Part shown: piece after piece, positions 9,338-19,261 of the stretch | Numbering within the stretch: the first letter of the stretch is position 1 | How the letters are laid out: every line of letters begins with the position of its first letter | Origin: Marinifilum sp. | GTDB lineage: Bacteria > UBA9089 > CG2-30-40-21 | Direction: 5' to 3' | DNA: 38,992 nt | NCBI GenBank assembly: GCA_020717845.1 | Contig: DYDG01000014.1 | Coordinates: 1 to 38,992, forward strand | Position numbers and translations under genes: made by a program | Notes under the pieces: model-generated | What the model saw: the letters and a program-made list of their open reading frames with translations, nothing else | What the model was told of the DNA's origin: nothing | Database searches by the model: none

Positions 9338-10114
9338 ATGCCATTGCAGAAAACTGAAGAAGAATTATGGCAAGAATATAAACAAACAAAAAACCCAGGT
9401 ATTCGTGAAGAGCTGATACTAATGTATGCTTCGATAGTTAAATATATTGCTGGACGGGTTGCAATTAATATGCCTCCTAACGTTGATTTTGAGGATTTGC
9501 TCTCTTATGGGATTCTTGGCTTGATTGATGCCATTGAAAAGTTTGATGCCAAGCAGGGAATAAAATTTAAAACATATGCCTCAGCCAGAATCAGAGGAGC
9601 AATAATTGATGAAATCAGACATCTTGACTGGGTCCCAAGAACCTTGCGACAAAAAGCAAAGATGTTGCAAAATGCTTATGCCTCTCTGGAGTATAAACTT
9701 GAACGGCCAGCAACCGATACGGAAGTAGCAGAAGCAATGCATATTTCTATAGATGATCTTTATAAACTTATCCAGGAGGTAAATACCACGTCTATTGTCT
9801 CGTTAGAGGATGTATTATGCTCAAAGGATGACAGCGATGAAGTAACTATTATGGATATGGTTGAAAATCCTCAGGAACAAGGTCCAGATGTATTGGCAGA
9901 AAACGAGGATATAAAAGATATCCTTATTTGTGCCCTTAATAAGCTTCCAGAAAGAGAAAGAGAGATTATTGCCTTATATTATTATGACGAGTTAACCCTA
10001 AAAGAAATAGGAAAGGCTTTGAATGTTACTGAATCCAGAATCTCTCAGCTGCATAGCCAGGCAATTCTTCGCCTGCGGGGAAATTTAACCATGATGAAAG
10101 GGACTTTGTTGTAG
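9338..10114 (+). CDS. fliA: flagellar sigma factor sigma-28 (FliA/WhiG family)
   Basis: FliA directs RNA polymerase to late flagellar promoters. The 258-residue product has region 2 (FEDLLSYGILGLIDAIEKFD, then FKTYASARIRGAIIDEIR), region 3 (VPRTLRQKAK and TDTEVAEAM) and region 4 ending in the helix-turn-helix LTLKEIGKALNVTESRISQLHSQAILRLR. ATG 9338 follows AAGGAG. A near-perfect target promoter lies in the same window at 18886-18913, upstream of an flgM-like gene, supporting a complete FliA-FlgM circuit. The neighbours flhF and flhG match the usual arrangement. Confidence 0.95.
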   Translation: MPLQKTEEELWQEYKQTKNPGIREELILMYASIVKYIAGRVAINMPPNVDFEDLLSYGILGLIDAIEKFDAKQGIKFKTYASARIRGAIIDEIRHLDWVPRTLRQKAKMLQNAYASLEYKLERPATDTEVAEAMHISIDDLYKLIQEVNTTSIVSLEDVLCSKDDSDEVTIMDMVENPQEQGPDVLAENEDIKDILICALNKLPEREREIIALYYYDELTLKEIGKALNVTESRISQLHSQAILRLRGNLTMMKGTLL

Positions 10115-10153: not shown

Positions 10154-11143
10154 ATGAAACAGCTTATAATCATAGGAATAATAGCTTGTTTGTCTGGTTG
10201 TATTGGGCAACAAAAGGTTTGTTACGAAAACTGTCTTTTAATGGGTACTATTGCCGAGATCAAGGTGGTTGGTGATGAAAAGGAAAAGGCAAAGAAGGCA
10301 ATAAATGCTGCCTTTAATCGAATGAAGAAGATAGAGAGGATTACAAGCTTTTGTGACCCTAAAAGTGAGCTTTCCAAAATAAACCAACAAGCAGATAAAT
10401 CTTTAGTTGAAGTATCCTATGAGATGTGTGAGATATTAAGGGAATCATTAAAGTATTCTAAGATTACAGATGGGGCATTTGATGTCAGCATTGGCAGCCT
10501 TTCTAAACTATGGGATTTTGGTTCAAATACTGTTCCGCCGCCAAGAATAAAGATAATAGATAGTGCCTTGTTGGTAGGGCATGAAGATGTGAAATTTGAT
10601 ATTAATAAAAGACAAATGCTGTTTGACAGGAAGGGGATGAAGATTGATTTAGACAGTGTAAATAAGGGGTATGCTGTTGAAGAGGCAGCTAAGGTTCTTA
10701 TGGATGCAGGGTTTCATAATTTTCTAATAAACCTTGATGGTAATATTAAGGCTATTGGCACAAATCCGTGGGGATTTCCATGGAAGGTTGGCATCAGACA
10801 TCCAAGATCAAAGAATAATATTCTGACTACATTAAAGCTTCATGACATGGCTGTGGCTACCTCTGGGGATTATGAACGCTATTTTATCTCTGATGGTCAG
10901 AGATACCATCATATCATAGACCCGCAAAGCGGGTATCCAGTCTCTAATGGATGTGTGTCTGTAACGATAGTCACCCCATCCGCTTTTGTCGCTGATATCC
11001 TTTCAAATGCGGTTTTTGTCCTTGGCCAAAAGGCAGGTATGGATATTATTGAAGATCTGGAACAGGTAGAAGGCATTATTATTACAGATAAAGATATCCT
11101 TGTTTCCTCGGGCCTGACAGAAAAGATTCATGTGAGGAAATAG
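10154..11143 (+). CDS. apbE: ApbE-family FAD:protein FMN transferase, lipoprotein
   Basis: ApbE proteins attach FMN to threonine of exported or membrane proteins using FAD and Mg2+. The 329-residue product has a lipoprotein signal with lipobox LSGC (Cys about 16), MGTIAEI, a DGAFDVSIGSLSKLWDFG segment, NKGYAVEEA, and the C-terminal HHIIDPQSGYPV motif followed by FVADILSNAVFVLG. Some usually conserved positions differ: DLGGxxKG reads DLDSVNKG, the NAGGD segment reads NLDGN, and the ADxLST threonine is Asn, while the preceding Asp is kept. It is therefore ApbE-fold, but its activity is less certain. Start ATG 10154 follows AGGAG. It lies 39 bp after fliA; no obvious flavinylation target was seen beside it. 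Confidence 0.85.
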   Translation: MKQLIIIGIIACLSGCIGQQKVCYENCLLMGTIAEIKVVGDEKEKAKKAINAAFNRMKKIERITSFCDPKSELSKINQQADKSLVEVSYEMCEILRESLKYSKITDGAFDVSIGSLSKLWDFGSNTVPPPRIKIIDSALLVGHEDVKFDINKRQMLFDRKGMKIDLDSVNKGYAVEEAAKVLMDAGFHNFLINLDGNIKAIGTNPWGFPWKVGIRHPRSKNNILTTLKLHDMAVATSGDYERYFISDGQRYHHIIDPQSGYPVSNGCVSVTIVTPSAFVADILSNAVFVLGQKAGMDIIEDLEQVEGIIITDKDILVSSGLTEKIHVRK

Positions 11144-11259: not shown

Positions 11260-11288
11260 TTGACAAATATTGATGATTGGTATACAAT
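11260..11288 (+). promoter_or_regulatory. sigma-70-type promoter for the giant surface-protein gene
   Basis: A perfect TTGACA at 11260-11265 is followed after 17 nt by TACAAT at 11283-11288. The 184-bp gap after apbE is otherwise AT-rich with no other element recognised. The gene start (ATG 11328) is about 33 nt downstream of the expected transcription start. Confidence 0.75.
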
Positions 11289-11327
11289 ATCTAATTATCA
11301 ATAGAAAAATGGGGGGGAGTCTTGCCA

Positions 11328-14300
11328 ATGAAAAACCTCGTTCTGAGATCCTTCTTATCCTGCCTGTTAATTACCATGACAACTATGTCTTATGCTGGGA
11401 ATTATCTCCCTATCCTTACATGGCCAGGCACTGGCACATATAAGTCTGATGGACTTGATCCAGAGGTCGGTGTCCAGGGGACTACCTTTACCTTTCGGGT
11501 GAAGTATATTGATTATGATAATGAGGCACCGGCAGGGGATGTGATGATGGTGCTTAATATTCCCAATGAAGTACCTATGGGATTGGTTATGTCACCTGAA
11601 GGCTCAAATCAAGACTACCGAAAAGGTGTGATCTACCGCTACGCTACATCAACCCTTACGCCTTTATCATATAACTATTCCTTTGTAATAAAAATACCCG
11701 GTAATCCACCAGATGATCCATATGATATGATAATTAACACTGCAGAACGCTCTGGCACGAATGGAGCTACTTTTAACCTACAGGAAGCAGATGAGTTGTC
11801 TCCAATAATTACTCATCAAGGACCGAAAGTAGTATCTGACCAGATACTTGGCTGGCTTGGAAGCAAAAATTACGAGAGTGATGGACTTGATCCAGAAAAT
11901 GGTGGGACAAATACGGTATTTACATATAAGGTAAAATGCTTTGGAACACCTTCAAATGGATATCCAAAGCTGGTTATTAATTCACTTAATAATGATATGG
12001 TTCCCATCATTATGAAATCTGAGGCAGGTGGCAATTCTCTTAGTGGCACGGTATATTACGCTACATCTACCTTGCAAGTTGATACTATCTATACATATCG
12101 GTTTCAATTAACAGACGTTAATGAGACTCCTCCTACAGAGTCTCCACGTATTTATCCCACTCCCACTACATCTGACTCTGCTTTTTTTGACTGGACCGGT
12201 GGTTTGGGATACGAAAATGATGGGATTGATCCTGATATTGCCAGTTATGGCTCAACCTTTACCTGTAAAATCAAGTATGTGGACATAACAGGAATTCCAC
12301 CAGTGAATTCTCCAATAATACGTATTGATGGAAGAGACTATCCAATGGATTATGCATCTGGCACATCTATGACTGGCATTATTTATCAATATCAATATCC
12401 GACAACAGATTTATCATCGCTTGGTACGATTTCTTGTTCAATTCGTTATGTTGCAGAAAGCACTTATTTTCAAAAGGACTTTGATTTCTGGACAGCAAAC
12501 ATCCCTCCCCTTCTAACATGGACAGGTGAACCGGGTTATAAAGATGATGGTGTTCAGCCAAATGTTGGGACTGCAGGCACTGTATTTACCTTTCGCATAA
12601 AATATACAGATCCTGAGGGGAACTCTCCATGTGAGATATGGTTAAAGGGTGATAAGGAGATAGCCATGGAACCAAAAGGTTATAATGGAATATATGAATG
12701 TACGGGAACATTCAGCCTTGGCCAACACTACTATTGGTTTTCTGCTTGTGAGGAAGTTAGTGGTATGACTGTAATAAAAGTCAGTGCTGGTGGGAGTAAA
12801 ACAGTAGTCAATAAATCTGATCTTAGTCTACCCATACAACTTGCCTCCTTCATCGTATCCATTGGCAGCCTCACCTCAGTTGCCATCACTGGCACAAATG
12901 CTGTTGGGATAGACGAGACAGCAACCTTTACGGCTCAAGCCTTTGATGAGCTTGGTGAGGAGATTGAGGATAGCTATGTTACTTATTCCTGGTATATTAT
13001 TGAAGGGGTAGGTTTGCTTACCAACAAAAATAGTAAAACCGTTACCTTTACAGCAGGCACAAGCACAGGGACAATAACCTTAGAGGTTACTGCCCAACCT
13101 GCAAATGCAGATGGTGTCCTTCAAGGTGATGAGGTTACTGCCACAAAAACCATCACCATCAAGCCTGGCAAGCCTACAGCACTTTTTTTTTTAGAAACCG
13201 GAACAAATACCCTCACAGCTAACGTGCCTATCAAAGGCTCAAGATGCTTCTCAATTTTAGGGAAGGATAGATATGAAAATCCTACCCTGATTGGAAATTG
13301 TACCTGGTATGTTGAGGGAGCGATTGGGACGATTTCTTCCTCAAGTGGCAATAAGGCTACATTTACTGCAGGAGCTAATACTGGAACAGGTGCAGTAGTA
13401 GTTAGCACCATGGGTAACGACGGAACACTGACTGCAACCGTGAGCATTACGATTACTCATGGTGATTTTGATCATTTCGATATCCTGGTTGAAAACCCAC
13501 CAATTAGTGTTGATGGGAGCATAACCATCACCCTTTATCCAAAGGATGTAAGCGGCAATACTGTTGATTATAGCGGGACATCTTCGCCAATATTAAGGAT
13601 AATGGTTGACACTGATTCTGCAACTCTCGGCTCATGTGTTATTAATAGTCCTATAGAATTCCCCTGGCCACCAGGGTTAAAAGATAATCTTGGAACCGGC
13701 ACTATCTATGCCTCAATCAATGGAATCAACAAAGGCACAAGCAGCCCATTCCCGATTGTCTCGGGCTCGCCACACCATTTCAATATCAGCTCACCTGTAA
13801 CCAATAGTGCTGTCCAGGCTGGCGATGCAAGTATTCCAGTTACAGCTCAATTGCAGGACAGGTATAACAACCCATCCGCTCTGGGGACATCTGCCTGCGT
13901 GGTATTTCAATCTGACAGTTTTGGCACATTCACCATTGATAGCACAGGCATCACCTCACCTGGCACAATCACCGTTCAAACCAATGCCAGCGGACAGATA
14001 GTCGGCAGTTACCAGCCAAATTTTTCATCCGGCAGTAAGGCAACACTTGTCAGTATGTTTCTGGCAGCAGATGATACGGTAATGGGCACAAGCGGGGCAA
14101 TCATCCTCACCATCCCGGCTGCTCTGGCTACAATAGATGTTGTCCTGCCAGCAACATTTACCGCAGGTGTCCCGGCGACAATAAGTGTTGCTGTAAGGGA
14201 TAGCTACAATAATCCAGCCACAGCTACCCTTAGCTTCAGCAGCTCTCTGGGCACAATGACACCAAATGGATGTATAATTACTGGCAGTATAACCAATGGA

Positions 14301-17300
14301 TTTTCATGGCAGACTAATGGCACATGGACAGGGACAACCTCATTTACTAAGGCACAAATGCAGGCAACGTTGACTATCACCGCCCAAAATGGCAAGACAG
14401 CTACAACAACGTTTGCTGTTTTACCAGCAGAGCCACACAACCTGCAGGCTACAGGGACAACAACCTACAACGGTTCATCTGGGGATGAATGGACACTGGG
14501 TGTCAGGTTAAAGGATATGTATGGGAATCCAATCGAAGGGAGAAACATATTCTGGGAGTTTATCTCAAATCCATCCAATGCCATGCTTGCAAATACTGTT
14601 TCCACAACCAATCAAGCAGGAGAGGCAGGTGTTATTCTTACATTAGGCACCAAAACAGGGACATGCACCATCAAGGTATATCCTGAAGGGTTTTCTGGTA
14701 TCTCAGCGACATTTACAGCAACAACTATTGCCGGCTCCCCTACCATTTCATCTGGCAGCTATCCCTCAACAGCAACTGTTGACAACAAGATAGTCCTTGA
14801 GGCAGTACTCATGGATAATTCAGGCAATCCATTCCAGGGCAGGAATATTACGTGGCAGGTTTTGCAGCCATTACATGGAGCATTCATTAGCCCATCAACA
14901 AGCACCACCAATAGTTCAGGCATGGCTACAACAAGCCTTACCCTTGGGACAAAGACTGGTGTGTATATTGTAACAGCAAGATATGGATCATTAACTGCTA
15001 CATTTACCATTACCGCCATGCCTGATAACACGGCTACAATGACCACAACCATTACCCCGGGAACAGTGGCTGTGGTTAATAGCCAGATGATATTAGGTGT
15101 GGAGTTGACTGACCAATGGGGCAACCCTGCAGCTACAACAACTGTCAACTGGCAGCCACAGGGACTGGCAGCTACCACTACTCAAACCATAAATGGCAGC
15201 ACAACCCTTGAATTCATCCTTGGCACAAAAACTGGCGTGTATCTTGTTACCGCAACCTCTGGAGCATTAACCGCTACATTTACCATTACCGCTCTACCCG
15301 ATAAGCTTGGTGTAATAACCACAGCTATTACACCAGGGACAGTAGCTGTGGTAAGCAGCCAGCTGGTGTTGATGGCTGGATTGTATGACCAATGGGGTAA
15401 CCCTGCAGCTACAACAACCGTCAATTGGCAGCCACAGGGCATGGCAGCGACAACTACTCAAACCATAAATGGAATCGCAACCCTTGCATTTACCCTTGGG
15501 ACAAAGACGGGTGTGTCCATTATTACTTCCACCTCTGGAACATTAACCGCTACCTTCAGCATCACAGCCATAGCAGGCACGAGTGCCTTATCCCAGAATT
15601 TTACGCATGCCTCACGAACGGTGGGGAATAGTATAACCCTTGAGGTGTGCTTAAAAGATGAGTTTGGCAATCCAGGCTCAGGCACGGTATCATGGAGTCT
15701 GGTTGGATCATTGACTCAAGCAGCATCACTTACTGCTGCATCTACCCCTATTGATCAGACAGGCTCAGCAAGTGTTGTTTTAACCATTGGGACAAAAACA
15801 GGAGACTATGTTGTCCGGGCACAAGTTGATGGCTGGACAGCTACATGGACCATTACAGCTGAACCGGGTGTAGTAGGGACAATGTTGACCGGATACGTGC
15901 CCTCAACTGCTGCAGTTAATACTACCCTGCCACTAACCATTGGGTTATATGATTCATATGGCAACCCTGTCTCAGCAACTGTTGATTGGCCATCTACCAG
16001 CACTCAAACCATAAACGGAACCGCAACCCTTATGTTTACCCTTGGCACTCGTACCGGTATATATGAGATAACCGCCTCACATGATGGCAGGATTGCCACC
16101 TTTACCATTACAGCTACACCCGGCACACCAACCATATCCCAAAATCTTAGCCATGGCTATGGAACTGTGGGTGAGAATGTAACACTTGAGGTATACTTGA
16201 GGGACGAGTTTAGTAATCCATGCCCTGGCACAATAACATGGAATTTGATTGAGCCATTGCCTGCAGCAGCATCGCTTTCTGCTACATCTACCCCTATTGA
16301 CCTTCAAACAGGCTCAGCAAGCGTTGTCTTAACTATTGGCACCAAAACAGGAGACTATGTTGTGAGGGCACAGGTGGATGGTTATACTGCTACATGGACC
16401 ATTAGTGCACTATCAGGGAATCTGGCTACAGATACGGTCTCTGGCACATCTACCGGTGCAGCCGTAGTAAATGGGACAATGACATTTACCCTCAACATCT
16501 ATGATGAATATGGCAACCCTATTCAGAGCGGAAACGTTGATTGGACCGTAATCCGTGGAACCATAACCACAGCAACAAAAACAACCTCTATCTCAAATGG
16601 TCTAACTGAATATTCCTACAAGATAGACACGATTGCCGGGACATATACAATAAGTGCTAAGTTTGGGGCTATGCTGTTCAAGCCGTTCAATATCTGTGTG
16701 AGTCCTGGCAGCCCAACACTTACCCCAAGCGTTTCTGCAATATCCTGCCTGCCGGGTGGAAATATCATTCTGGAGGTATCTTCCAGGGATGAGTTTGGCA
16801 ATCCATGCCCTGGCACAGTAGAATGGAGTCTGATTGAGCCATCGTCTGCGACTGTGTCGTTTTCTGCTACATCTACTACTATTGATCAGACAGGCTTAGG
16901 GACAACTACATTTACCCCTGGAACAATGAGCGGGAATTATATCGTTAAGGCTGCAATTGCTGGACAGGAGGGACAGAAGAGGCAGGAGGCTACCTGGACT
17001 ATCACGGTTAGAACAATGGATTCCTCTAAGGAGTTGCTTATCTATCCCAACCCACTAAGGGTTCAGGAATGGAATTATAGCAAGTATCCTGATGGCCCAT
17101 GGGTAAGGTTTGGCAGTTTTAATAGCCATGTAACGATAAGGATATATGACATCTCAGGCAATTTGATAAGGATTATGGAGAATGTCCAACCAGCTCCGGA
17201 TGGATTTGTGAAATGGGACATGAAAAATGAAGGAAGCCCCTCTGACAAAGATGGGGTTGAGGTAAACTCAGGCGTCTATCTGTGTATTACCATATGCAAT

Positions 17301-17339
17301 GGAGAAAAAAGGATTGAACGGTTTGCTGTGATAAGGTAA
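11328..17339 (+). CDS. giant secreted Ig-repeat surface protein with FlgD/T9SS-like C-terminus
   Basis: The 2,003-residue product is an apparent extracellular adhesin or surface-layer protein. It has a signal peptide (cleavage expected after SYA, about residue 24). Four N-terminal repeats of roughly 110-150 residues follow, each opening with W-G..GY..DG..P and T.FTF..KY.D (about residues 30, 180, 290, 400). About five irregular Ig-like modules come next, then nine more regular Big_1-like modules (about 1040-1900) carrying GNP and LGTKTG.Y.VTA signatures. The last 100 residues (IYPNP, IRIYDISGNLIR, GVYLC) resemble the FlgD/type 9 secretion C-terminal fold. ATG 11328 follows GGGGGGGAG. It has its own promoter, and a PorV-like gene follows 20 bp later, suggesting outer-membrane delivery by that partner. 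The ligand is unknown; near-identical DNA repeats may change module number. Confidence 0.85.
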   Translation: MKNLVLRSFLSCLLITMTTMSYAGNYLPILTWPGTGTYKSDGLDPEVGVQGTTFTFRVKYIDYDNEAPAGDVMMVLNIPNEVPMGLVMSPEGSNQDYRKGVIYRYATSTLTPLSYNYSFVIKIPGNPPDDPYDMIINTAERSGTNGATFNLQEADELSPIITHQGPKVVSDQILGWLGSKNYESDGLDPENGGTNTVFTYKVKCFGTPSNGYPKLVINSLNNDMVPIIMKSEAGGNSLSGTVYYATSTLQVDTIYTYRFQLTDVNETPPTESPRIYPTPTTSDSAFFDWTGGLGYENDGIDPDIASYGSTFTCKIKYVDITGIPPVNSPIIRIDGRDYPMDYASGTSMTGIIYQYQYPTTDLSSLGTISCSIRYVAESTYFQKDFDFWTANIPPLLTWTGEPGYKDDGVQPNVGTAGTVFTFRIKYTDPEGNSPCEIWLKGDKEIAMEPKGYNGIYECTGTFSLGQHYYWFSACEEVSGMTVIKVSAGGSKTVVNKSDLSLPIQLASFIVSIGSLTSVAITGTNAVGIDETATFTAQAFDELGEEIEDSYVTYSWYIIEGVGLLTNKNSKTVTFTAGTSTGTITLEVTAQPANADGVLQGDEVTATKTITIKPGKPTALFFLETGTNTLTANVPIKGSRCFSILGKDRYENPTLIGNCTWYVEGAIGTISSSSGNKATFTAGANTGTGAVVVSTMGNDGTLTATVSITITHGDFDHFDILVENPPISVDGSITITLYPKDVSGNTVDYSGTSSPILRIMVDTDSATLGSCVINSPIEFPWPPGLKDNLGTGTIYASINGINKGTSSPFPIVSGSPHHFNISSPVTNSAVQAGDASIPVTAQLQDRYNNPSALGTSACVVFQSDSFGTFTIDSTGITSPGTITVQTNASGQIVGSYQPNFSSGSKATLVSMFLAADDTVMGTSGAIILTIPAALATIDVVLPATFTAGVPATISVAVRDSYNNPATATLSFSSSLGTMTPNGCIITGSITNGFSWQTNGTWTGTTSFTKAQMQATLTITAQNGKTATTTFAVLPAEPHNLQATGTTTYNGSSGDEWTLGVRLKDMYGNPIEGRNIFWEFISNPSNAMLANTVSTTNQAGEAGVILTLGTKTGTCTIKVYPEGFSGISATFTATTIAGSPTISSGSYPSTATVDNKIVLEAVLMDNSGNPFQGRNITWQVLQPLHGAFISPSTSTTNSSGMATTSLTLGTKTGVYIVTARYGSLTATFTITAMPDNTATMTTTITPGTVAVVNSQMILGVELTDQWGNPAATTTVNWQPQGLAATTTQTINGSTTLEFILGTKTGVYLVTATSGALTATFTITALPDKLGVITTAITPGTVAVVSSQLVLMAGLYDQWGNPAATTTVNWQPQGMAATTTQTINGIATLAFTLGTKTGVSIITSTSGTLTATFSITAIAGTSALSQNFTHASRTVGNSITLEVCLKDEFGNPGSGTVSWSLVGSLTQAASLTAASTPIDQTGSASVVLTIGTKTGDYVVRAQVDGWTATWTITAEPGVVGTMLTGYVPSTAAVNTTLPLTIGLYDSYGNPVSATVDWPSTSTQTINGTATLMFTLGTRTGIYEITASHDGRIATFTITATPGTPTISQNLSHGYGTVGENVTLEVYLRDEFSNPCPGTITWNLIEPLPAAASLSATSTPIDLQTGSASVVLTIGTKTGDYVVRAQVDGYTATWTISALSGNLATDTVSGTSTGAAVVNGTMTFTLNIYDEYGNPIQSGNVDWTVIRGTITTATKTTSISNGLTEYSYKIDTIAGTYTISAKFGAMLFKPFNICVSPGSPTLTPSVSAISCLPGGNIILEVSSRDEFGNPCPGTVEWSLIEPSSATVSFSATSTTIDQTGLGTTTFTPGTMSGNYIVKAAIAGQEGQKRQEATWTITVRTMDSSKELLIYPNPLRVQEWNYSKYPDGPWVRFGSFNSHVTIRIYDISGNLIRIMENVQPAPDGFVKWDMKNEGSPSDKDGVEVNSGVYLCITICNGEKRIERFAVIR
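15060..15560 (+). repeat. near-identical Ig-module coding repeats inside giant gene
   Basis: Two successive modules of about 240 bp share long matching DNA stretches (both encode GNPAATTTVNWQPQG and TTQTING). A second related pair encodes GTKTGDYVVRAQVDG at about 15790 and 16335. These are recent duplications within the reading frame and could expand or contract by recombination. Confidence 0.8.
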
Positions 17340-17359
17340 GATTAGATAAAGGTGAAACA

Positions 17360-18754
17360 ATGCGATACTTTCTACTGATAGTTCTAACAGGTATAATATT
17401 TCCATCCCTAACCACAGCTGCTCAAGAAATAGATAATAATGCTGCAATTAATCGCGGTGTTACTGGGGCTAATTTTCTAAAGATAGGCAGCAGCCCAAGG
17501 GCATTGGCATTGGGTGGGGCATATTGCAGCCTTGCCGATGATGCAGCTGCTATTTATTGGAACCCAGCCGGGCTTACCCAGGTAAAAGGATATGAGATAG
17601 CCATGATGCAAAATAATTGGCTGCCTGGAATAGAGACAGGGTTTCTGAGCTATGTCCATTCACCACAAGGTAGCACCTCTGGCAAAGGCAAATCATCCTA
17701 TGCCTGTTCTATAAGTCGAATGGGTGCAGATAGGATGCTGGAAACTAAAATTAATGCCAATGGTGAATACGAAGCAACAGGGAAAACCTTTGGTGCACAG
17801 GGGACAATGCTGATTGCCTCCTATGCAACATCACAATCCAAAGGAATATCTATTGGCAGTAATCTGAAGCTTATCAGTGAGAAAATCGCGGACAAAAAAT
17901 CATTTTCCATGGCAATAGATTCTGGGATTTTATACCAGATGGGATTCTTAAAATTAGGAATGACAGTCCAAAATCTTGGAACAGGCTTGAAACTTGCAGA
18001 GAAAAGGGCAAAACTGCCAATTGGTTATAGATGCGGCATCTGCGTCAATGGAACAATTAATGGTAAAAAATCAATAGGAACAATAGAAACAGCTACCTGG
18101 GTAAAGGAGGCAAGCGTTGTATCCTTTGGAATTGAGTCTTACTTAAATGAATGGCTTTCCCTAAGGCTTGGGTATCGTGATGAAAAGGATACTGATGATA
18201 AGCTATACCTGCACAAAAAAAGCATCTTAAAGGGGTTTTCCTGCGGATTTGGATTGTCTCCATCTCCAAACTACCGTCTGGATTATGCCCTTGTGCCTCA
18301 GGGCGATCTTGGTTTTACCCATATAGCCTCACTTCAGATGAGGTTTGTCCCAACGCCTGTGAAAAAAGAAGAGATACTGCCTACGGTTGAAAAGGTTGAG
18401 GAAATACCAGAGAAGAAGGTAGAAGAAAAACTTGAAAAGCCTTCGGTGACTGTATCAGAAAAACCAACGGTAAGGGAAGAAAAGGAAGAAAAAGCTAAAA
18501 AGCCTGAACCAGTTACACCAAAAGCTCCACCTAAAGAGGTCAAACAGCTTCTGGAGCCTAAGTATATAGCTGTCCTGTTGAGTGATAATATCACCCTCTG
18601 GTCAGGACCAGGGGTTACCTATCAAGCCGTTGCCAGTCTCAATAAAGGCACAAAGCTGCGGGTCATAGATGACTCAAAGAAGTGGTATTACCATGTTCAG
18701 CTTGAAGATGGAACAATGGGTTGGATCTCGTATGTGTTTGTCGGCAGGGAGTGA
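17360..18754 (+). CDS. PorV/UPF0164-like outer-membrane protein with C-terminal SH3 domain
   Basis: The 464-residue product has a signal peptide (about 1-20) and the PorV/PorQ/UPF0164 entry motif GANFLKIGSSPRALALGGA followed by SLADDAAAIYWNPAGL (about residues 34-75), then a beta-rich barrel region to about residue 325. A linker rich in Lys, Glu and Pro (about 330-398) leads to a bacterial SH3 domain (IAVLLSDNITLWSGPG through GWISYVFV, about 399-464). In the type 9 system PorV carries cargo with C-terminal signal domains to the cell surface; the upstream giant protein has such a C-terminus. The SH3 tail may bind peptidoglycan and the linker may span the periplasm. It is 20 bp after the giant gene and preceded by AAAGGTGA. 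The functional pairing is inference. Confidence 0.82.
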   Translation: MRYFLLIVLTGIIFPSLTTAAQEIDNNAAINRGVTGANFLKIGSSPRALALGGAYCSLADDAAAIYWNPAGLTQVKGYEIAMMQNNWLPGIETGFLSYVHSPQGSTSGKGKSSYACSISRMGADRMLETKINANGEYEATGKTFGAQGTMLIASYATSQSKGISIGSNLKLISEKIADKKSFSMAIDSGILYQMGFLKLGMTVQNLGTGLKLAEKRAKLPIGYRCGICVNGTINGKKSIGTIETATWVKEASVVSFGIESYLNEWLSLRLGYRDEKDTDDKLYLHKKSILKGFSCGFGLSPSPNYRLDYALVPQGDLGFTHIASLQMRFVPTPVKKEEILPTVEKVEEIPEKKVEEKLEKPSVTVSEKPTVREEKEEKAKKPEPVTPKAPPKEVKQLLEPKYIAVLLSDNITLWSGPGVTYQAVASLNKGTKLRVIDDSKKWYYHVQLEDGTMGWISYVFVGRE

Positions 18755-18885: not shown

Positions 18886-18913
18886 TAAAGTTTTTTAATC
18901 ATCCTGCCGATAA
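18886..18913 (+). promoter_or_regulatory. sigma-28 (FliA) promoter upstream of flgM
   Basis: TAAAGTTT at 18886-18893 and GCCGATAA at 18906-18913 both match the classical sigma-28 consensus at all 8 positions, with a 12-nt spacer (the consensus is 11). It lies 36 bp before the flgM-like start. This is the only near-consensus sigma-28 promoter I found in the window. Confidence 0.85.
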
Positions 18914-18949
18914 AAGAGATGAGGGAAAAATTTTAAGGAGATGATGAAG

Positions 18950-19261
18950 ATGCTGATTAATCCTGTTACCGGTACCCCAGAAATACAAAAGATGGATAAC
19001 AAAAATCTTGCAGTAAGGCAATTAGAAAGCAAGGTATTTCCAAAAGATAGGATTGAAATATCTTCTCACGCAAAAGAGGCACACCAGCTTCGTCTTTATG
19101 CTGGAGAAATGGCAAAAAAGATAGCAAACACTACCCCAGATAGGATAGAATTAGTAGCTCAGGCAGCCATCAAATTGAAGACCGGAGCTTACAATCAGCC
19201 AGATGTTACTGAAGAGATTGCCAAAAGACTTTCCAAAGTGTTAATGGGGATGGAGATTTAA
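18950..19261 (+). CDS. flgM: FlgM-like anti-sigma-28 factor
   Basis: FlgM binds FliA and holds late flagellar genes off until it is exported through the hook-basal body. The product is about 103 residues, typical in length, with an unstructured N-terminus. The C-terminal half matches the family pattern: DRIEISSHAKE, then RIELVAQAAIKLKTGAYNQP and VTEEIAKRLSKVL, as in FlgM's sigma-binding helices. The start was placed at ATG 18950 because AAGGAG (18935-18940) is 9 nt upstream; ATG 18941 and 18944 lie too close to it. A consensus sigma-28 promoter just upstream strongly supports the assignment. It is the last gene of the plus-strand block. Confidence 0.85.
   Translation: MLINPVTGTPEIQKMDNKNLAVRQLESKVFPKDRIEISSHAKEAHQLRLYAGEMAKKIANTTPDRIELVAQAAIKLKTGAYNQPDVTEEIAKRLSKVLMGMEI

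Follow-up and report, generated by a model that had tools for sequence, protein, structure and literature searches.

To our knowledge, nearly all descriptions of type 9 secretion systems (T9SSs) come from Bacteroidota, in which one PorV barrel serves every type A cargo. In Flavobacterium johnsoniae a single PorV handles all type A cargos, type B cargos use a carrier that is encoded directly downstream, as in the SprB-SprF couple, and the proposed link of such a cargo-carrier couple to the wall in Bacteroidota is a separate PorE-like protein (PMC12618676). In Porphyromonas gingivalis, PorQ holds PorZ at the surface in a ratio of about 1:1 (PMC5562754). Here we consider a pair of adjacent genes from an uncultured bacterium of a flagellated candidate phylum, one encoding a 2,003-residue protein with immunoglobulin (Ig)-like repeats and the other a 464-residue barrel of the PorV/PorQ family. 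The window analysed is positions 1 to 38,992 of contig DYDG01000014.1 (assembly GCA_020717845.1). We consider it likely, with a probability of roughly two in three, that one gene encodes a cargo and the other its private carrier, both belonging to a type 9-like system, with the cargo held lastingly on the cell surface.

A giant predicted cargo and the barrel behind it

An earlier interpretation of this DNA, made from its letters without database searches (the sequence-only reading), had proposed a giant Ig-repeat protein followed 20 bp later by a PorV-like barrel with an SH3 domain, and the open reading frames (ORFs), Pfam and model NF033709 confirm both genes and the 20-nt gap between the stop codon of one and the ORF start of the other. 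The giant protein starts with a Sec-type signal peptide that can be read from the sequence itself, MKNLVLRSFLSCLLITMTTMSYA. Most of its length is a stalk of Ig-like repeats, in which Pfam recognises Big_1 in eight stretches (107 bits) as well as Invasin_D3, and the DNA of the stalk region is itself repetitive, with copies 276 nt and about 546 nt apart. An intimin-type autotransporter identity was dropped: the 2,003 residues contain no barrel domain that Pfam recognises, and the N-terminus consists of the four predicted beta-sandwich repeats described below.

The C-terminus had been described as FlgD/T9SS-like, and the T9SS half of that description is the one that stands. A scan of just the last 105 residues gives 24.1 bits for the PorZ tail and about 13 bits for FlgD models, and FlgD_ig reaches 14.8 bits against a cut-off of 27. 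We also scanned the corresponding domains of four orthologues, two from the same family and two from a sister family. All of them match the PorZ tail best, and three of the four pass the cut-off of the type A tail model TIGR04183 (27.7, 40.4 and 34.7 bits); in one, the type A tail and a FlgD model are level, at 20.5 and 21.2 bits. We therefore classify the domain by sequence as a T9SS type A-like C-terminal sorting domain (CTD) rather than a FlgD-like one, with the window copy itself not formally qualifying.

The barrel scores 125.7 bits on NF033709 over residues 35-329, above the cut-off of 90, and is joined by a linker rich in Pro, Lys and Glu to a C-terminal SH3_3 domain (residues 414-460, 31.5 bits, cut-off 27). 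A profile of seven members of the barrel family matches F. johnsoniae PorV (6h3i_F) at E 1.5e-14, the sole strong relative of known structure. The equivalog models all stay below their cut-offs (PorQ NF033711, 99.5 bits against 220; PorV NF033710, 27.4 against 250; PorV2, 88 bits), and therefore we assign the protein to the PorV/PorQ family and not to PorQ or PorV as such. Both termini of outer-membrane barrels of this type face the periplasm, so the linker and SH3 domain would lie inside. PorV paralogues in the same genome end in OmpA (C172), SH3 (C15), LpoB/CsgG-like (C42), FlgD_ig or TPR domains, and a PorV-OmpA fusion is also encoded in another metagenome-assembled genome (L226; labelled Clostridia, probably misnamed). 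OmpA-type domains bind peptidoglycan, and the fused OmpA, SH3 and LpoB/CsgG-type tails are consistent with anchoring to the wall or envelope. In the window system, the link to the wall may be built into the barrel itself.

At the other end of the giant protein, four W-G..GY..DG..P repeats had been noticed as a module without a name. The repeats, of 107-147 residues, are real, each scoring 92-139 bits on a profile built from the same repeats and their orthologues. Scans of Pfam and NCBIfam gave them no name, but a profile search of the PDB matched them to a module of PspXan9, a xanthanase of glycoside hydrolase family 9 (6fhj residues 820-924; E 1.4e-10 and 1.8e-13). Modelling, which had been suggested as a check, agrees: AlphaFold2, given an alignment of 80 repeats, folds repeat 1 into a confident beta-sandwich (predicted local distance difference test, pLDDT, 82), for which VIA-align places the xanthanase module first (Z 11.4, root-mean-square deviation 2.6 over 101 residues) and the next fold at Z 8.5. 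Profile and model together thus identify the repeats as predicted relatives of the PspXan9 beta-sandwich module, and an otherwise unannotated adhesion-type module gets a name through homology to a xanthanase domain. Given this relationship, carbohydrate contact is a fair guess. Related genomes encode proteins of at least 4,000 residues with dozens of copies of this repeat.

Type 9 components and cargo-barrel pairs in the genome

The search for sprA and for further proteins with the same CTD, which the sequence-only reading had recommended, was productive. The assembly (2.55 Mb, 94% complete) encodes an SprA/Sov homologue, a 2,167-residue ORF at C79 that scores 201 bits on TIGR04189 against an equivalog cut-off of 200, and SprA relatives are present throughout the phylum. 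A phmmer search of this protein against solved structures gave no match, so the SprA call is solely that of the NCBIfam model. The genome further holds 40 type A CTD matches and 32 PorV-family matches, 22 of them over the cut-off. Type 9 components are therefore present rather than wholly absent, and nothing suggests that the giant protein is a part of the flagellum. Downstream of the SprA homologue, a PEP-CTERM-like protein (L167:12450-13169, G000:C79) is encoded between two CTD proteins, which suggests two sorting systems side by side. A second SprA-like protein, of 1,154 residues (L169:772-4236, G000:C39), has gmk- and coaBC-like genes as neighbours. It aligns best with SprA at positions 604-713, and relatives of the same size occur in the genus, in G006, a genome from the order of the window genome, and in G008. 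This protein may serve as a second translocon or be a paralogue with a specialised role.

Cargos and barrels are paired systematically. If a tail is counted as paired when a PorV-family match lies no more than 600 nt downstream of it in the same orientation, 15 of the 40 CTDs directly precede such a match, where random placement predicts about 0.14 and never exceeded 3 in 20,000 simulations. The total rises to 18 pairs once the window pair and two weaker-tail genes are added, and the cargos vary, including beta-propellers, M6 peptidase-like, FG-GAP and fibronectin-type proteins. The window pair itself is shared by six genomes, which represent two families. We also surveyed 80 PorV loci of other genomes, with record titles that include Elusimicrobia, Firestonebacteria, KSB1, Ignavibacteriales, Eisenbacteria and others. 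A tail gene is found upstream in 55 of the 64 readable cases, compared with 24 of 475 other genes; some of the 55 come from Bacteroidota-like records and have an upstream gene about 1,100-1,250 residues long, and these probably represent the known porU-porV neighbourhood. For organisms other than Bacteroidota, the open-licence literature yielded no account of a type A cargo paired with a PorV-family barrel. Two barrels of the window genome (G000:C22 and G000:C17) are near-identical and have unlike cargo tails upstream, which makes them a natural case for asking if a single type of barrel can serve two cargos.

Locus layout and promoters

The pair lies among flagellar genes (Table 1). Its position between fliA and flgM, as originally described, is correct in outline; fliA and the pair are separated by an ApbE gene (FAD:protein FMN transferase) that had gone unmentioned, and the flgM call is below the Pfam cut-off (PF04316, 15.6 bits against 25). 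In the related genome G002 the pair is likewise followed by a flgM-like gene, 67% identical.

Table 1. Positions of the gene pair, its domains, its promoter and its neighbours in the window
Feature	Coordinates	Strand	Evidence or remark
fliA	9338-10114		FliA/WhiG match; upstream of the pair
apbE	10154-11143		FAD:protein FMN transferase; between fliA and the pair
Predicted sigma-70 promoter of the pair	11260..11288	+	TTGACA-17-TACAAT; 11 of 12 consensus positions
ORF of the giant gene	11322-17339	+	ATG at 11328; Shine-Dalgarno GGGGGGAG 5' of the start
Giant, predicted secreted cargo gene	11328..17339	+	2,003 residues; ORF list and Pfam
Four W-G..GY..DG..P repeats, predicted beta-sandwich modules	11409..12842	+	Profile match to PDB 6fhj
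Ig-like (Big_1/Invasin_D3) repeat stalk	13000..17020 (approximate limits)	+	Pfam, DNA repeats
T9SS type A-like CTD	17022..17336	+	Ends exactly at the stop codon (..RFAVIR)
PorV/PorQ-family barrel gene	17360..18754	+	464 residues; NF033709, SH3_3
Predicted sigma-28 promoter of flgM	18886..18913	+	TAAA-16-GCCGATAA; exact match; opens the next transcription unit
flgM-like anti-sigma-28 gene	18941-19261	+	Neighbour, outside the pair

Judging by their promoters, the cargo and barrel genes appear to form one transcription unit of their own. Both sigma-70 hexamers and the ribosome-binding site are kept in G002 despite divergence of the DNA further upstream. The exact sigma-28 site lies behind the pair, in front of flgM; it has a chance expectation of 0.01 and is also conserved in G002. 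The sigma-28-like sites near the pair all carry three mismatches, a chance-level score in a window that holds about 60 sites with up to three mismatches per strand, and the sequence thus gives no support to sigma-28 co-regulation of the pair. The FliA regulon of this lineage could well be defined starting from the flgM promoter.

Candidate mechanism and comparison with described systems

We propose that the giant protein enters the periplasm through Sec, as its signal peptide suggests, and would cross the outer membrane through the SprA/Sov-like translocon. The barrel encoded downstream would then capture its CTD, and the two would most likely stay together as a lasting 1:1 surface complex, because they are produced as a pair and because CTD and barrel resemble PorZ-PorQ at least as much as a cargo and PorV. 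From the periplasmic face of the barrel, the SH3 domain could reach the cell wall on its long linker and act as an anchor, while the Ig stalk would push the four xanthanase-type modules outward, probably for adhesion or glycan contact. The sequence-only reading had likewise seen a cargo-carrier pair in a type 9-like display route, and the translocon homologue, the CTD and PorV-family matches and their systematic pairing support this.

Several observations weigh against this proposal. The window CTD reaches 20.5 bits on TIGR04183, 2.5 below the cut-off of 23. An AlphaFold2 model of the barrel from seven sequences predicts strands, at a mean pLDDT of 45.7 that makes it untrustworthy. Distances among tails and among barrels in the genome correlate (Mantel r 0.43, p 0.0004), but the correlation is weak without two recent duplicates (r 0.23, p 0.03), so that it is no more than suggestive of cognate pairs. 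Two further type 9 components were sought: the candidate for PorU, an 809-residue C25 peptidase with a CTD tail, scores 78.3 bits on the PorU model, far below the cut-off of 420, and PorM (TIGR03517, PF12081) has no match in the window genome, although the same search found none over the cut-off in relatives or presumed T9SS carriers either.

Some of these points can be read in favour of an ordinary T9SS shuttle, in which the barrel would ferry any cargo from the translocon to a sortase, which cuts the CTD and attaches the protein or sets it free, and would then be recycled, the pairing being an unspecific operon habit. Bacteroidota PorV works in this way (PMC5562754), the C25 peptidase with its CTD tail would supply a sortase, and the co-divergence of CTDs and barrels is modest. 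However, about 18 cargo-linked copies are needless for a recycled common carrier, barrels fused to OmpA or SH3 domains resemble anchors more than mobile carriers, and the putative sortase is the same protein that falls so far short of PorU; we regard the shuttle as unlikely. We give much less credence to a FlgD-type Ig fold without a sorting role, which would make the barrel an unrelated FadL-like porin and the giant protein periplasmic. Ig folds are alike and weak FlgD_ig matches do occur, but FlgD models score below the PorZ tail in every orthologue and below the T9SS tail in four of the five proteins, the domain ends at the stop codon in nearly all CTD paralogues, the barrel passes the PorV/PorQ family cut-off and stays well below that of FadL, and SprA is present. 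Such a reading seems to us very improbable.

The flagellar setting raises the question of whether the pair functions in motility or in controlling it, perhaps as a swimming-coupled adhesin deployed by sigma-28, and the sequence-only reading had suspected co-location with motility control. The location between fliA-apbE and flgM favours this, as does the adjacency to flgM kept in G002, and G003, a member of the same genus and the sole related genome without FlhA, also lacks the PorV-SH3 orthologue. A single deletion, however, may have cost G003 the pair and the locus together. G003 still has its SprA homologue along with 32 CTD and 26 PorV matches; it appears to have lost its flagella and kept the display system, which is therefore independent of flagella. 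The flagellated sister family keeps its orthologous pairs away from flagellar genes on their contigs, next to other genes such as what we take, from its sequence, to be a XerC-like recombinase. Together with the conserved sigma-70 promoter, the chance-level sigma-28-like sites near the pair and the perfect site that belongs to flgM, these data speak against the suspected link, and a role in motility is improbable. The place of the pair among flagellar genes looks incidental, a matter of neighbourhood rather than regulon.

A broader scheme can be tentatively put forward, which we consider possible though somewhat less than an even bet, a branch of type 9 secretion with one barrel per cargo: in this candidate phylum, and probably in others, each type A-like cargo would have its own PorV/PorQ-family barrel, tethered to the wall by fused SH3, OmpA or LpoB-like domains, and would remain uncut and permanently attached, instead of relying on a shared PorV and a sortase, possibly without a PorL/M motor. 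With an SprA homologue, 40 CTDs and about 18 pairs, this genome from a flagellated candidate phylum suggests that carriers paired with their cargos are an old or common alternative. These pairs are also a ready test set for CTD recognition and the surface retention of cargo.

Compared with the canonical T9SS, the window genome shares an SprA/Sov homologue, CTD cargos and PorV-family barrels. It differs in its weak sortase homologue, in lacking a PorM match (by a search that also failed in presumed T9SS carriers), and in belonging to a flagellated lineage whose nearest named records are not Bacteroidota. The Big_1/Invasin_D3 Ig repeats of the giant protein are common to the inverse autotransporters intimin and invasin; these carry their own N-terminal barrel, whereas none was found in the giant protein, whose transport would need its CTD and a separate barrel. 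Its N-terminal repeats are predicted homologues of the PspXan9 module, but the window protein has no catalytic domain. With SprB and its PorP/SprF-like carrier, the pair shares the order of a large adhesin gene followed by its own carrier gene; it departs from that system in its type A-like CTD, in a carrier of the PorV/PorQ family and in the possible wall anchor fused to the barrel. The closest working analogy is the PorZ-PorQ part of the PorZ-PorQ/PorU-PorV attachment complex of P. gingivalis, where a CTD-bearing surface protein is likewise held by a PorV/PorQ-family barrel. The window CTD scores best with the PorZ tail and the window barrel higher on the PorQ than the PorV equivalog, although both are far below the PorZ and PorQ equivalog cut-offs. 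The partner in the window is a giant adhesin-like protein, neither a sortase nor a protein for the delivery of anionic lipopolysaccharide (A-LPS), and what P. gingivalis does with PorZ and PorQ, this genome may do with about 18 couples, in the window with an SH3 tail on the barrel.

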